A program made the translations under genes and the position numbers. A model generated the notes under the pieces. The model had not been told where the DNA came from and did not search any database. It saw only the letters and a list, made by a program, of their open reading frames with translations. A DNA stretch of 28,167 bases from a virus: positions 1 through 28,167 of the IMG/VR virus record IMGVR_UViG_3300030118_002023; one strand, 5' to 3'. Below are positions 1 to 26,351 of this stretch, one piece after another (within the stretch, counting starts at the first letter, position 1; every line of letters begins with the position of its first letter).

Positions 1-678
1 TTCACGAACCAGTGAAGATGTAACCAGTGAACCATGCATAGCAGAGAACAGTGAACCACCAAAGACACCAGCAACTCCCAGCATGTGGAAGGGGTGCATC
101 AGGATGTTGTGCTCAGCTTGGAAGACAAGCATGAAGTTGAATGTGCCAGAGATGCCAAGGGGCATGCCATCTGAGAAAGAACCTTGACCAAAGGGATATA
201 CCAGGAAGACTGCGGATGCTGCTGCAACAGGTGCAGAATAAGCAACACAGATCCAAGGGCGCATACCCAGTCTGTAAGACAGTTCCCACTCACGACCCAG
301 GTAGCAGAAGATGCCAATGAGGAAGTGGAAAACTACCAGTTGGTAAGGACCACCATTGTAGAGCCATTCATCCAGAGATGCTGCCTCCCAAATGGGGTAG
401 AAGTGAAGACCAATTGCGTTGGAAGAAGGGACAACAGCACCAGAGATGATGTTGTTACCATACAGAAGTGAACCAGCAACAGGTTCTCTGATTCCGTCAA
501 TGTCCACAGGGGGAGCAGCAACGAAAGCAGTAATGAAGCATACGGTGGCTGCCAACAGAGTTGGAATCATCAGCACACCAAACCAACCAACATACAGACG
601 GTTATTGGTTGAGGTCACCCACTGGCAAAATTGTTCCCAGGTGGATGTAGATTGTTGTCTTGAAAGTGTTGTAGCCAT
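1..678 (-). CDS. psbA: Photosystem II D1 protein, 5' part (runs off left edge)
   Basis: This is the first 226 codons of the D1 reaction-centre protein (family length about 360), cut by the window edge. It begins [17 protein letters not shown]. Residue numbering matches cyanobacterial D1 exactly: TyrZ is Y161, the manganese ligand is D170, and H190, H198 and H215 fall in [10 protein letters not shown] and MHGSLV. Residue 130 is Glu (GREWELS), as in the high-light type of D1. D1 is the rapidly photodamaged core of PSII; cyanophages carry psbA to keep electron flow going in the infected host thylakoid. No intron is seen in the visible part. Upstream lie a roughly 160-nt structured leader and a composite promoter. 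Confidence 0.98.
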
Positions 679-702: not shown

Positions 703-718
703 AGTACGGGGTGGTACT
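703..718 (-). promoter_or_regulatory. psbA leader hairpin proximal to the start codon
   Basis: The arms AGTAC and GTACT (703-707 and 714-718) pair around a 6-nt loop, 25 nt upstream of the psbA ATG in the transcribed leader. Together with the larger hairpin at 731-753 it makes the leader structured. PhotoRC RNA motifs are known in psbA leaders of marine cyanobacteria and cyanophages; whether this is one was not tested against a covariance model. Confidence 0.4.
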
Positions 719-730
719 GAGTATAGTATT

Positions 731-753
731 CCCACTCTACCCTCCAGAGTGGG
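731..753 (-). promoter_or_regulatory. psbA leader hairpin, 8-bp perfect stem
   Basis: CCCACTCT (731-738) pairs perfectly with AGAGTGGG (746-753) around a 7-nt loop. It lies between the psbA promoter and the start codon. On the minus strand it is followed by AATACT rather than a T-tract, so it is not a typical intrinsic terminator. A leader element stabilising the mRNA or controlling translation is more likely; photoRC-II is a candidate family. Confidence 0.55.
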
Positions 754-836
754 TATGAAGGACTGTTGTTTAGACACGCTGTTTAGTCCTGGTAAGGCGT
801 GTAAAACAAATGTGGGGGAACCCTCACTTGTTGATG

Positions 837-8787: not shown

Positions 8788-8816
8788 ATTATATATAATT
8801 TTTTAATATTTGTCAA
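8788..8816 (-). promoter_or_regulatory. Perfect sigma-70 promoter of the hli unit
   Basis: The minus strand reads TTGACA (8811-8816), 17 bp, TATAAT (8788-8793), a 12/12 match with optimal spacing. An AT-rich spacer and upstream AT-rich DNA add strength. It is 30 bases upstream of the hli ATG at 8757. Host vegetative-sigma promoters of this kind drive early genes in T4-like cyanophages. Confidence 0.9.
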
Positions 8817-23197: not shown

Positions 23198-23999
23198 CTA
23201 TTACCTCCCATTCATCTGGATACAAATCTCTGATATCTAGGTGTGCATTGTTGGGTCCAAACCATACTGATGGAGCAACTACTTTGCCCTTGTTTGCCAA
23301 CCAAGCACCCCACCAGGAGAATGTAGAGTTAGCAATAATAAAGTCTGAACATAAGGACATCAGGCACAGGTCAGTATAACTTGTGTTGCCCTCTGCTACT
23401 AGGAATCTATCATCAGAGAACAGTTGTTGCCTCTTACACCACTCTGGATCATCAGAGAATATAATTATATTCCTACCATCAAATCTAGTCAATGCCTTCT
23501 CATAGTAACTGATGTTCAGGTTGTGATGATTACCTGCATTCTTTAAGAAGTCACCTCTTCTGATGTGAAGTGCAACAGGATTATCAACACCAGACATTAT
23601 CTCTACACAAGGTTCTTTGATCTCATCAAAGAATTCAAAGTCCTTACGAATTACATCCTCAATATTCTTGAAATACCTCTCTGTCTGAAAGAAACCAACA
23701 AGATTTACCCAGTCAGGGCAGTTGTTATAGATGTCTTCATTAAAATGAAAACCACCCTCTTGTATATTAGGTCTATTAGCATCAATAACCTGTGCATTCA
23801 AAGCACTAAATGTGCTCATCTTGAATACATCAAAGAGTTCAATTCTTAATCTGTTACCAAGTACATCAGTAATGACCTCATCATGATAGGGGATGCAATA
23901 GTTGTATCCTCTGTTTGCTGCAATGCCTTTTACAGCAGCATACTGAAACATCTGGTTACCCAGTTGTCCCAGTTTGCCAAGATAATTAAACCCTATCAC
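23190..23999 (-). CDS. Glycosyltransferase family 11, alpha-1,2-fucosyltransferase-like
   Basis: This GT11 protein has GQLGNQMFQYAAVKG near the N-terminus (donor loop), the ALHIRRGDF motif (about 143-151, GDP-fucose binding), and DLCLMSLCSDFIIANSTFSW then WGAWL at the C-terminus. The frame is open to a TTG at 24050, but GTG at 23999 with AGGAG 10 bases upstream gives VIGFNYLGKLGQLGNQMF, the usual start position. It would transfer fucose or a related 6-deoxy sugar. The GDP-sugar enzymes in this cluster could feed it. It overlaps the GME gene by 14 bases at this start. Confidence 0.9.
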   Translation of the reverse strand: MIGFNYLGKLGQLGNQMFQYAAVKGIAANRGYNYCIPYHDEVITDVLGNRLRIELFDVFKMSTFSALNAQVIDANRPNIQEGGFHFNEDIYNNCPDWVNLVGFFQTERYFKNIEDVIRKDFEFFDEIKEPCVEIMSGVDNPVALHIRRGDFLKNAGNHHNLNISYYEKALTRFDGRNIIIFSDDPEWCKRQQLFSDDRFLVAEGNTSYTDLCLMSLCSDFIIANSTFSWWGAWLANKGKVVAPSVWFGPNNAHLDIRDLYPDEWEVIDE

Positions 24000-25083
24000 T
24001 ATTGATTTGCTCCTGAATCCAATGATATGTGTGACGAATACCCTCTTCAAGATTCACTTTTGGTTCCCATCCAAGTTTCTCTCTGATGAGATCATTGTTG
24101 GAGTTCCTACCCCTCACACCCAGAGGTGCATCAAGTTTATGTACTCTGCGTACAACCTTGCCTGATACCTTTGCAGCAGTCTCAACCAGTTGATTGATGG
24201 TTACCATCTCCTCAGAACCAATGTTCACAGGTCCAAGGAAGTCTGATTCCATCAGTCTTCTAGTTGCTTCAATACAGTCATCAATGAACAGGAAGGAACG
24301 AGTTTGTAAGCCATCTCCCCACACCTCGATTCCTCCACCAACCTCTGGGAGGTAAGCCACTTTACGGCAGATTGCAGCTGGTGCTTTCTCTCTTCCACCC
24401 TCCCAGGTTCCTTCTGGTCCAAAGATATTGTGGTAACGGGCAATCCTAACAGGAATGCCATGGTTACGATTGTAAGCCAAGTACAATCTCTCTGCAAAAA
24501 GTTTCTCCCACCCATATTCTGAGTCTGGGGCTGCTGGGTATGCTGAGTCTTCACGGCAATTAGGGATATCAGGGTCTAGTTGATTGTACTCTGGGTACAT
24601 ACAAGCAGAACCAGAGTAGAAGATCTTAGTAGGTTGATCAAGGTTAGGACGATGCTGACCAACTGCTGGTGGTTCATTACCAGTGAATGTCTCATTCAAC
24701 TTGCGAACAGATTCCAGGACATTCAGATTGATGGTACAGGAGTTATGCATAATCTCTGCATCATTGTCTCCTGTAAAGACAAATCCTGCTCCTCCCATAT
24801 CAGCAGCAAACTGATAGATCTCATCAAAAGGTTCAATATACTGATAGGGAACTTCTGCATAGAAGTTTCCATTAAATCCTGCAAACTGGATAACTCTCTC
24901 TACAAATTTGAAATCACGCAGGTCACCTACAATGAACTCATGTGCTTCTGTTTCACCAAACTCTGGGTGCTTGAGATCAACTCCACGCACCCAGTATCCT
25001 TCTGCACGCAGTCTTTCAACCATGTGACTACCAATAAACCCACCAGCACCTAGTACCAGTGCTGTCTTTCTATATTCAGACAT
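23986..25083 (-). CDS. GDP-mannose 3,5-epimerase-like SDR
   Basis: This 365-residue protein is close to plant GME (about 377). It has GAGGFIGS (12-19, NAD), AADMGGAGF (93-101), SACMYPE with catalytic Cys161, YGWEK (Y190, K194), and GTWEGGREKAPAAICRK with Lys233. The Cys-Lys spacing of 72 equals that of the Arabidopsis enzyme (C145/K217). Two stretches (about 64-88 and 131-151) look inserted relative to plant GME. It converts GDP-mannose to GDP-L-galactose/gulose, or an equivalent GDP-sugar. It is the first gene of the operon and ends 14 bases inside the GT11 gene. Confidence 0.92.
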   Translation of the reverse strand: MSEYRKTALVLGAGGFIGSHMVERLRAEGYWVRGVDLKHPEFGETEAHEFIVGDLRDFKFVERVIQFAGFNGNFYAEVPYQYIEPFDEIYQFAADMGGAGFVFTGDNDAEIMHNSCTINLNVLESVRKLNETFTGNEPPAVGQHRPNLDQPTKIFYSGSACMYPEYNQLDPDIPNCREDSAYPAAPDSEYGWEKLFAERLYLAYNRNHGIPVRIARYHNIFGPEGTWEGGREKAPAAICRKVAYLPEVGGGIEVWGDGLQTRSFLFIDDCIEATRRLMESDFLGPVNIGSEEMVTINQLVETAAKVSGKVVRRVHKLDAPLGVRGRNSNNDLIREKLGWEPKVNLEEGIRHTYHWIQEQINSDRV

Positions 25084-25104: not shown

Positions 25105-25133
25105 ATTATAGGAGGTCAGATATCAGACGTCAA
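25105..25133 (-). promoter_or_regulatory. Sigma-70 promoter of the glycan operon
   Basis: The minus strand has TTGACG (25128-25133, 5/6), exactly 17 bp, then TATAAT (25105-25110, 6/6). The -35 box overlaps the stop codon of the 25123-25371 gene. The -10 box ends 21 bases from the ATG at 25083, so the leader is very short and has no clear Shine-Dalgarno. No late box is present, so this operon is predicted to be early or middle. Confidence 0.82.
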
Positions 25134-25371
25134 TCCTTCTGACACCATCTTCACCTTTGGGGAAATACTCTGTGATTGATTTCACTTTGTTAAGTGCTTC
25201 AATAAGTTTGTCAACTTTACCACCATCACTAGCAGGTGCTGCTTTGTGCTCATGATTTTTCAGTTTTGCAACTGCTGCTTCAAGAGCTTTCAATCTTGCT
25301 TCCACTTCTACATCATACTTTGACATAGATGCACCACTTGCAGACTTTGCTGCTGTTCCTTTGTACGCCAT
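25123..25371 (-). CDS. Small coiled-coil protein (82 aa)
   Basis: The start is MAYKGTAAKSASGASMSKYD at 25371; the frame is open six codons further but those codons lie in untranslated leader. The 82-residue protein is Ala/Lys-rich with a heptad-patterned helix (about 17-40, VEVEARLKALEAAVAKLK) and a charged, possibly helical second half. It ends GVRRIDV. It lies just downstream of a late-type box (25396-25403) and a terminator. A virion or scaffold role is possible; no family is recognised. Confidence 0.72.
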   Translation of the reverse strand: MAYKGTAAKSASGASMSKYDVEVEARLKALEAAVAKLKNHEHKAAPASDGGKVDKLIEALNKVKSITEYFPKGEDGVRRIDV

Positions 25372-25395
25372 GTTAATTAATAAAGACATCCAGTG

Positions 25396-25403
25396 TATTT
25401 AGA
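25396..25403 (-). promoter_or_regulatory. Late-promoter-like box TCTAAATA
   Basis: TCTAAATA on the minus strand sits 24 bases before the ATG at 25371, the same distance as its copy on the plus strand at 1463-1470. It directly follows the T-tract of the terminator at 25403-25431, mirroring the terminator/TATAAATA arrangement at 7904-7933. Confidence 0.6.
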
Positions 25404-25431
25404 AAAAAAGGAGACCCCTTGAGGTCTCCTT
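25403..25431 (-). terminator. Rho-independent terminator
   Basis: AAGGAGACC (25408-25416) and GGTCTCCTT (25423-25431) form a 9-bp stem with a 6-nt loop, and on the minus strand the stem runs into a seven-T tract. It ends the unit carrying the genes at 25549-26021 and its downstream hairpins. Confidence 0.9.
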
Positions 25432-25450
25432 AAAGGGTCTTGCATGCACG

Positions 25451-25539
25451 CCACTTGCTTTTAGGAAGCAAGAAACCATGGGGTCATATGACTCCACCAC
25501 CTAGTTTTAGGAACTAGGAAACCAGGGGTTATCCCGACC
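25451..25539. ncRNA. Tandem covarying hairpins, candidate structured RNA
   Basis: Two 28-nt units, 46 nt apart, share the layout CCA, 7-bp stem, loop TTAGG, 7-bp stem, AAACCA (25451-25478 and 25497-25524). The flanks and loop are identical, but the stems differ at three pairs and each change is compensated: CTTGCTT/AAGCAAG versus CCTAGTT/AACTAGG. After each unit GGGG begins another small hairpin (25480-25495 around GTCATATGAC; 25526-25535 GGG-TTAT-CCC). The region lies between the 25549 stop and the terminator, so on the minus strand it is the 3' UTR of an early unit. No known family recognised. Confidence 0.6.
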
Positions 25540-25548
25540 AGAGCTAGT

Positions 25549-25803
25549 TTAACGACATATCGAGTCTTTAATATAAGAAGGTGCGCCATCAGGATCCAAC
25601 CAACATGTATAGTCATGATCTTCCATAGCAGTGAGTAACTGCATTTCATTATCACAAAGATACATGTCTCTGTATTTTCCTGTATAGGAATCTACCTTTT
25701 GAATGCGACAGTCAGGTTGTCCATTGATTTCCAACTTACCAACCTGCACATACCTGTAAGGAAAACGTTCTAGAAGAACAGTGGGTTTCCTAGTGACTTT
25801 CAT
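25549..25803 (-). CDS. Small protein of unknown function (84 aa)
   Basis: The start is the ATG at 25803 (MKVTRKPTVLLERFPYRYVQ), two bases after the preceding stop. The 84-residue protein looks like a small beta-rich fold: alternating strands YVQVGKLEI, DCRIQKVDSYTGKYRDMYLC, then an acidic helix and YTCWLDPDG. Four Cys are spread out. No family recognised. It follows the 71-aa gene in the unit behind the promoter at 26044-26072. Confidence 0.72.
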   Translation of the reverse strand: MKVTRKPTVLLERFPYRYVQVGKLEINGQPDCRIQKVDSYTGKYRDMYLCDNEMQLLTAMEDHDYTCWLDPDGAPSYIKDSICR

Positions 25804-25805
25804 AA

Positions 25806-26021
25806 TCAAACAACTTCAGTGGTCTGGAGATCTTCTGCAATGCAGTCAATGAGGATATCATAATCATCAAGAGGATCACCAGAAAAGACTACTCCATCAT
25901 TCTCATAGAACTTGCGAACCTTCTTGTAAAGTTTTGGATTCTTTACATCCAGAAAGAAATCACCTTGAACTGCTGAACGAAGAGTAGTAATGTCTTTTTT
26001 GAACTTAGAAGTAATAGTCAT
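25806..26021 (-). CDS. Small acidic protein of unknown function (71 aa)
   Basis: The 71-residue protein begins MTITSKFKKDITTLRSAVQG: basic N-terminus, FYENDGVVFSGDPLDDYDIL in the middle, acidic C-terminus ending LQTTEVV. No membrane segment or known motif is seen. It is the first gene of the unit behind the sigma-70 promoter at 26044-26072, so probably early, when small host-takeover proteins are made; that role is inference only. Confidence 0.75.
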   Translation of the reverse strand: MTITSKFKKDITTLRSAVQGDFFLDVKNPKLYKKVRKFYENDGVVFSGDPLDDYDILIDCIAEDLQTTEVV

Positions 26022-26043: not shown

Positions 26044-26072
26044 ATTATAGGACAGTGGACTCTTAGAGTCAA
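26044..26072 (-). promoter_or_regulatory. Sigma-70 promoter of the small early unit
   Basis: The minus strand has TTGACT (26067-26072, 5/6), exactly 17 bp, TATAAT (26044-26049, 6/6). Within the spacer and -35 box is an inverted repeat GACTC-TTA-GAGTC (26058-26070), a possible operator. The promoter is 22 bases upstream of the ATG at 26021. Confidence 0.82.
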
Positions 26073-26177: not shown

Positions 26178-26351
26178 TTAGGATGCTTCGTTGTTCTGGT
26201 CTATGTACAACCTGAAATACTCTTCATCAGCAGGCACCATGACTGCCTTCTCTCCTCTCTCATTCTCTACCCCAATTGGTTCACCTTTCTCTACTCTGGT
26301 GACCAATTGTTCCCAGTTCTTTTGCCAGTATTCCACGGAATAAAAATCCAT
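26178..26351 (-). CDS. PhD/YefM antitoxin-like protein (57 aa), no toxin partner
   Basis: The 57-residue frame begins MDFYSVEYWQKNWEQLVTRV and continues EKGEPIGVENERGEKAVMVP, then a helical tail. The order helix, KGEPIxVxNxxGxxAVMVP, helix matches the core of PhD/YefM antitoxins, which bind DNA as dimers and neutralise a toxin. No RelE/Doc-type toxin gene lies beside it. A perfect inverted repeat directly precedes the start (26352-26373). It ends seven bases before the tRNA. It could be an anti-host-toxin decoy or a stand-alone regulator. Confidence 0.65.
   Translation of the reverse strand: MDFYSVEYWQKNWEQLVTRVEKGEPIGVENERGEKAVMVPADEEYFRLYIDQNNEAS

Follow-up and report, generated by a model that had tools for sequence, protein, structure and literature searches.

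The two minus-strand hairpins studied here belong to a known family, the wcaG RNA (RF01761), and the surroundings of this RNA across its cyanophage relatives suggest that the family may well have been mis-assigned. According to the sequence comparison, RF01761 would represent the last two units of a variable-length array of H-type pseudoknots, placed at the stop codons of small cyanophage genes and ending in a fused terminator/promoter; such an array would act as a 3'-end device of marine cyanophages, with message protection, protein binding or the release of a small RNA as its possible roles. Both Rfam and cyanophage papers present wcaG as regulating exopolysaccharide or high-light genes that lie downstream; if the array is instead a 3'-UTR element, ligand searches and claims of downstream regulation targeted the wrong transcript.

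We scanned the whole window (the complete 28,167-nt stretch analysed, from a 28 kb virus contig) with cmscan and detected RF01761 on the minus strand at 25526-25440, with 58.3 bits against a gathering threshold of 42 (E 1.3e-8). The match covered the full model (positions 1-98) without truncation, and the alignment placed the two hairpins and the middle hairpin in consensus order, with only two positions showing non-standard pairing. wcaG was the sole Rfam match in the hairpin region up to E 1; thus, a preQ1-like or other known aptamer was rejected, and so was a new RNA family, as the first-pass annotation of this DNA had called the hairpins. Reading the element on the plus strand was also discarded, since the model matched the minus strand only and the terminator lies on that strand too. 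The family goes back to a 2010 study that found it in marine metagenomes and T4-like cyanophages and proposed a possible riboswitch (Weinberg et al. 2010, PMC2864571); it was later listed in S-SCSM1, S-CREM1 and S-CREM2 (PMC9602691, PMC9964418, PMC10665884), and has the Rfam type Cis-reg. A literature search retrieved no experiments on wcaG function and no ligand-binding data, and the literature on Syn9 and S-PM2 transcription yielded no 3'-end or start-site data at the wcaG locus. The same cyanophage and marine setting was found in the window, which has cyanophage homologues and psbA with its PhotoRC-II RNA (RF01717, 59.4 bits; 718-815, minus strand) directly upstream of the partial gene (1-678, minus strand), identifying it as a fragment of a T4-like cyanophage. 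The window copy shares with RF01761 the full-length match above the cut-off, the GUUUC...GUGG letters in two hairpins and the marine cyanophage origin, and differs by its 5-nt loops, a GGAGUC-type linker, an extra upstream module and a terminator immediately after; it is an ordinary, somewhat divergent wcaG RNA. The features of the region, in the direction of transcription, are the following:

26044-26072, minus strand: promoter-like TTGACT-17-TATAAT (11/12 consensus matches)
25549-25809, minus strand: upstream 86-aa gene, phrog_481, no assigned function; the array begins at its stop codon
25525-25566, minus strand: extra upstream module outside the Rfam model (from the sequence)
25440-25526, minus strand: wcaG RNA, RF01761 (cmscan)
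25500-25524, minus strand: wcaG module 1, GG-UUU-CCUAGUU-CCUAA-AACUAGG, stem 25518-25500 (from the sequence; module type from the terminal-module alignment)
25479-25499, minus strand: inter-module linker UGGUGGAGUCA..UGACCCCA (from the sequence; a recurrent linker type)
25454-25478, minus strand: wcaG module 2 (terminal), GG-UUU-CUUGCUU-CCUAA-AAGCAAG, stem 25472-25454 (from the sequence)
25435-25453, minus strand: conserved end linker UGGCGUGCAUGCAAGACCC, with the terminator next (required by the search pattern and hence shared by every surveyed locus)
25403-25431, minus strand: intrinsic terminator AAGGAGACCUCAAGGGGUCUCCUUUUUUU, the strongest terminator-like site of the region
25396-25403, minus strand: putative late-type promoter TCTAAATA directly after the terminator, one mismatch to NATAAATA
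25123-25389, minus strand: downstream 88-aa gene, phrog_35121, no assigned function
25133-25105, minus strand: the epimerase's own promoter-like site
23986-25083, minus strand: nucleotide-sugar epimerase, phrog_540, first gene of the sugar cluster

On the minus strand, the first unit reads UGGUUU-CCUAGUU-CCUAA-AACUAGG-UGG (25524-25497) and the second UGGUUU-CUUGCUU-CCUAA-AAGCAAG-UGG (25478-25451). Both are 7-bp hairpins with the same flanks and the same CCUAA loop (TTAGG on the plus strand), and stem pairs 2, 4 and 5 of the seven are changed on both sides (C-G/U-A, A-U/G-C, G-C/C-G), just as the first-pass annotation had described them. A pair of perfect 7-bp/5-nt hairpins sharing a loop within 80 nt occurred once in the window and in none of 50 shuffles in 2-base blocks, while the folding signal of the region was weak when taken alone (z -2.0). 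These two hairpins are preceded by a third unit, composed of a GAC-UCGAUAU-GUC hairpin (25566-25554) and the linker UGGUCGGGAUAACCCC (25540-25525), which overlaps the final codons of the 86-aa ORF and whose linker type recurs 5' of wcaG in many relatives. The first-pass annotation had recognised the structure but overlooked the RNA strand, this extra module (25566-25525) and the known family.

Homologous units, whose absence elsewhere would have counted against the element in the first-pass annotation, are plentiful in cyanophages. We found wcaG in 44 of the 48 contigs picked by the upstream phrog_481 gene (two of the 48 were picked otherwise) and in 25 of a second set of 50 (18 above the cut-off), which consisted of contigs picked by the downstream 88-aa gene together with three named phages. 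The phrog_481 gene adjoins wcaG in many relatives; since part of the sample was picked by neighbouring genes, gene-neighbour frequencies are biased. Bellamy, S-SM2, SynMITS9220M01, Syn9, S-PM2, S-RSM4, S-SZBM1, WH25-B and S-H34 have one wcaG each, and none was found in P-SSM2 or P-SSM4. A loose pattern scan of cellular genomes gave only chance matches among the matches listed, and of the stretches examined L206 alone passed the first regular expression, spuriously. After removal of near-duplicates the survey set comprised 125 3' ends, or 124 without L206, and 63 of the loci behind the terminator and stop-codon counts had been located through their RNA pattern only. Small ORFs are annotated over the wcaG RNAs of S-SM2 (SSM2_190), Syn9 (gp208), S-RSM4 (SRSM4_042), WH25-B (XLM56225.1) and S-H34 (QJC69105.1), and these are probably spurious gene calls.

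In these relatives wcaG is a tandem of compact hairpin/pseudoknot modules. The linkers between modules begin with UGGUGCGGA, UGGUGGAGUC or UGGUCGGGA, the last one ends with UGGCG(U/A)GC(A/C)UG, and their spacing is mainly 41-59 nt. At least three linkers were present in 81 of 119 loci (background 0.29 linkers per 600 nt), so that the array exceeds the Rfam model with its two hairpin modules; the counts were obtained with custom linker regular expressions, and divergent units may have been missed.

The terminal module can be parsed as 4 nt - UUU - 7 nt - 4 nt - NNAAA - 7 nt, with its first 4 nt pairing with the four loop nucleotides to form a compact H-type pseudoknot, which may already be present in the published wcaG drawing. 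We aligned the terminal modules without gaps, using only those whose main helix had already been found by pairing. Among the 52 distinct sequences the main helix was 100% paired, a percentage biased towards pairing by this preselection, with two-sided changes at 4 of 7 pairs; the pseudoknot helix, which was no selection criterion, was paired in 99.5% of cells, with two-sided changes at 3 of 4 pairs. Double-changed cells numbered 113 against a shuffle mean of 29 (0 of 500 shuffles as high), and the signal was lost when the pairing partners were slid. The wcaG structure is therefore real and selected, and this covariation across the family bears out the selected structure that had been proposed from the two window units. 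Only 2 of 123 terminal modules have a 5-nt loop, the window's own among them; with loops of this length, the pseudoknot contact in the window's modules is limited to GG/CC.

Of 119 loci, 112 have an array that starts at the stop codon of a same-strand gene (control 184/600, 31%). An intrinsic terminator follows wcaG in 113 of 125 loci (116 under a laxer threshold), starting 6-20 nt past the end motif GUGGCGUGCAUG, compared to 37 of 3000 (1.2%) and 34 of 2007 (1.7%) in two controls. In 96 of 116 loci a -10-like hexamer was found 2-9 nt beyond the stem of the terminator (control 163/5000, 3.3%); the strict -35/-10 test (9 of 12) gave a weaker result than the -10 box alone, 38 of 124 loci against 10.6% in the control. 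Some loci have a TTGACA within the stem-loop of the terminator, with a spacing of about 17 nt, so that terminator and promoter are fused. Compact fusions of this kind were seen in many loci (e.g. L018 past 5520, with the -35 in the stem-loop and the -10 4-8 nt after the stem). The next gene usually has its start codon about 70 nt past the array. In the window, the octamer after the terminator differs at one position from NATAAATA, the cyanophage late-promoter consensus (PMC2984593). The location in a 3' UTR directly before a terminator, which had been suggested for the window alone, is hence supported by more than 100 homologous loci.

Some loci depart from this arrangement. Four loci that lack a terminator have a tRNA directly after the array (S-PM2, S-RSM4, L386 and L090), and cleavage by RNase P would there likewise place the array at the end of an RNA. 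In another 4 of 124 loci a start codon follows 9-13 nt past the array, again with no terminator, and hence the array can be intercistronic; in Syn9 a promoter follows the array with no obvious terminator. In S-PM2 we also observed an unannotated, broken frame at 121.3-122.8 kb (L494:317-1760), followed by the wcaG array and a tRNA-Gly; by eye it resembles a tryptophan-halogenase homologue (from MKIVIVGGGTAGWIA).

This arrangement bears directly on the published proposal, in which wcaG is a 5'-UTR cis-regulatory RNA that acts on the downstream gene through its translation or stability. The consistent classes of downstream genes and the Rfam type Cis-reg agree with that proposal, whose authors usually took motifs that commonly precede genes to be parts of 5' UTRs (PMC2864571). 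In the large majority of loci, however, the array is separated from the gene by a terminator and a -10 box, which argues against such a role in most of them, and it is joined directly to the preceding gene's stop codon; we therefore regard the 5'-UTR role as highly improbable, and the 3'-UTR placement suggested by the loci as the better fit.

The reading that we favour, with about even confidence, is that the wcaG array belongs to the 3' UTR of the upstream message and, together with the terminator, would make a compact 3' end that is exonuclease-resistant, protein-binding or both. In the window, the putative promoter at 26044-26072 is the likely start of the transcription unit that the array closes. 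The array would be co-transcribed with the small phrog_481 gene (86 aa), would run from its stop codon to just before the intrinsic terminator, and the transcripts would end at that terminator; the resulting 3' end could resist exonucleases and/or bind a host or phage protein, while the 88-aa gene and the sugar epimerase would start from the promoter-like sequences located after the array. The two roles raised in the first-pass annotation, a small RNA derived from the 3' UTR and a protein-binding platform, may each apply. Against a 3'-UTR role stand the loci with a nearby start codon and no terminator, Syn9 with its promoter but no obvious terminator, and the GG/CC-limited pseudoknot contact of the window's modules. 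In Bellamy and Syn9, moreover, arrays were found in a single region of each genome, which is odd for a general mRNA stabiliser, and the genes downstream are consistently of the sugar or high-light kind, the pattern that prompted the 5'-UTR proposal and that synteny may explain. If the role is true, phage mRNAs ending in a variable tandem array of compact pseudoknots would offer a useful means to study how 3' ends are protected in cyanobacteria.

The nearly constant adjacency of array and terminator also fits an attenuator or riboswitch, in which the array would sense a ligand or protein and set terminator read-through, giving the sugar or high-light genes expression beyond that of their own promoter. 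The downstream genes are mainly of nucleotide-sugar, other envelope or high-light type, and wcaG was considered a possible riboswitch by Weinberg et al. (2010; PMC2864571). We consider this mechanism unlikely, as no conserved antiterminator pairing between the array and the terminator arms was found among the survey loci: their complementarity was equal for native and swapped combinations (-9.66/-9.50 and -8.16/-8.32 kcal/mol). In addition, the -10 box after the terminator means that read-through is not required, and Weinberg et al. give the 5'-UTR position of motifs that precede genes as an assumption. A candidate pairing in the window, of GACCC with the 3' arm of the terminator, was rejected because it is not general among loci.

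Repeated modules with fixed UUU, AAA and UGG positions and a terminator end would also suit a multi-site binder, as expected if the array were processed or transcribed alone into a free small RNA acting in trans or as a protein decoy. This is quite unlikely, given that the window showed no promoter-like site of at least 9/12 shortly before the array.

Very unlikely, in turn, is a processive antiterminator, in which the nascent array, like HK022 putRNA or the Bacillus EAR element (epsC), would alter RNA polymerase to pass terminators and let early transcription enter the sugar cluster. We know of no sequence similarity of wcaG to putRNA or EAR, and their likeness is one of position: they are also structured RNAs upstream of terminators (PMC9378689; PMC2864571), EAR precedes exopolysaccharide genes as the window wcaG precedes a long polysaccharide cluster, whereas wcaG stands at a unit end with a new promoter after it. 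A NusG-like gene near the S-H34 array would agree with such a mechanism; this gene (L467:4179-4769) is annotated as NusG antitermination factor and lies about 1 kb downstream. On the other hand, a polysaccharide-specific role does not account for the arrays that precede tRNAs or high-light genes, and no further strong minus-strand terminator was detected in the window from 25.1 down to 9.3 kb (the next is at 9.26 kb), which leaves little for an antiterminator to pass.

A short stem, a U-rich loop 1 and an A-rich loop 3 are common to the preQ1-I riboswitch (RF00522) and other small H-type pseudoknot aptamers. The wcaG module shares the preQ1-I topology, but the region matches only wcaG in Rfam up to E 1 and has no link to a metabolite gene. 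The upstream pseudoknot domain of tobamoviruses precedes a tRNA-like end, to which the cyanophage wcaG arrays that precede tRNA genes may be compared. That domain, like the wcaG array in the favoured reading, consists of tandem pseudoknots in a 3' UTR (PMC4683447), an analogy only, as virus type and sequence are unrelated. STAXI (Weinberg et al. 2010) likewise has a pseudoknot structure in tandem, in two or three copies, but its neighbours are DNA-binding and antirestriction proteins; the likeness is by description, sequences aside, and STAXI gave no Rfam match in the window.

Finally, two further sites were observed on the minus strand of the window. A 57-aa Phd/YefM-like antitoxin (phrog_375) is encoded at 26178-26351 beside a tRNA-Met, with no obvious adjacent toxin partner, and a perfect TTGACA-17-TATAAT promoter-like site is located at 8788-8816.
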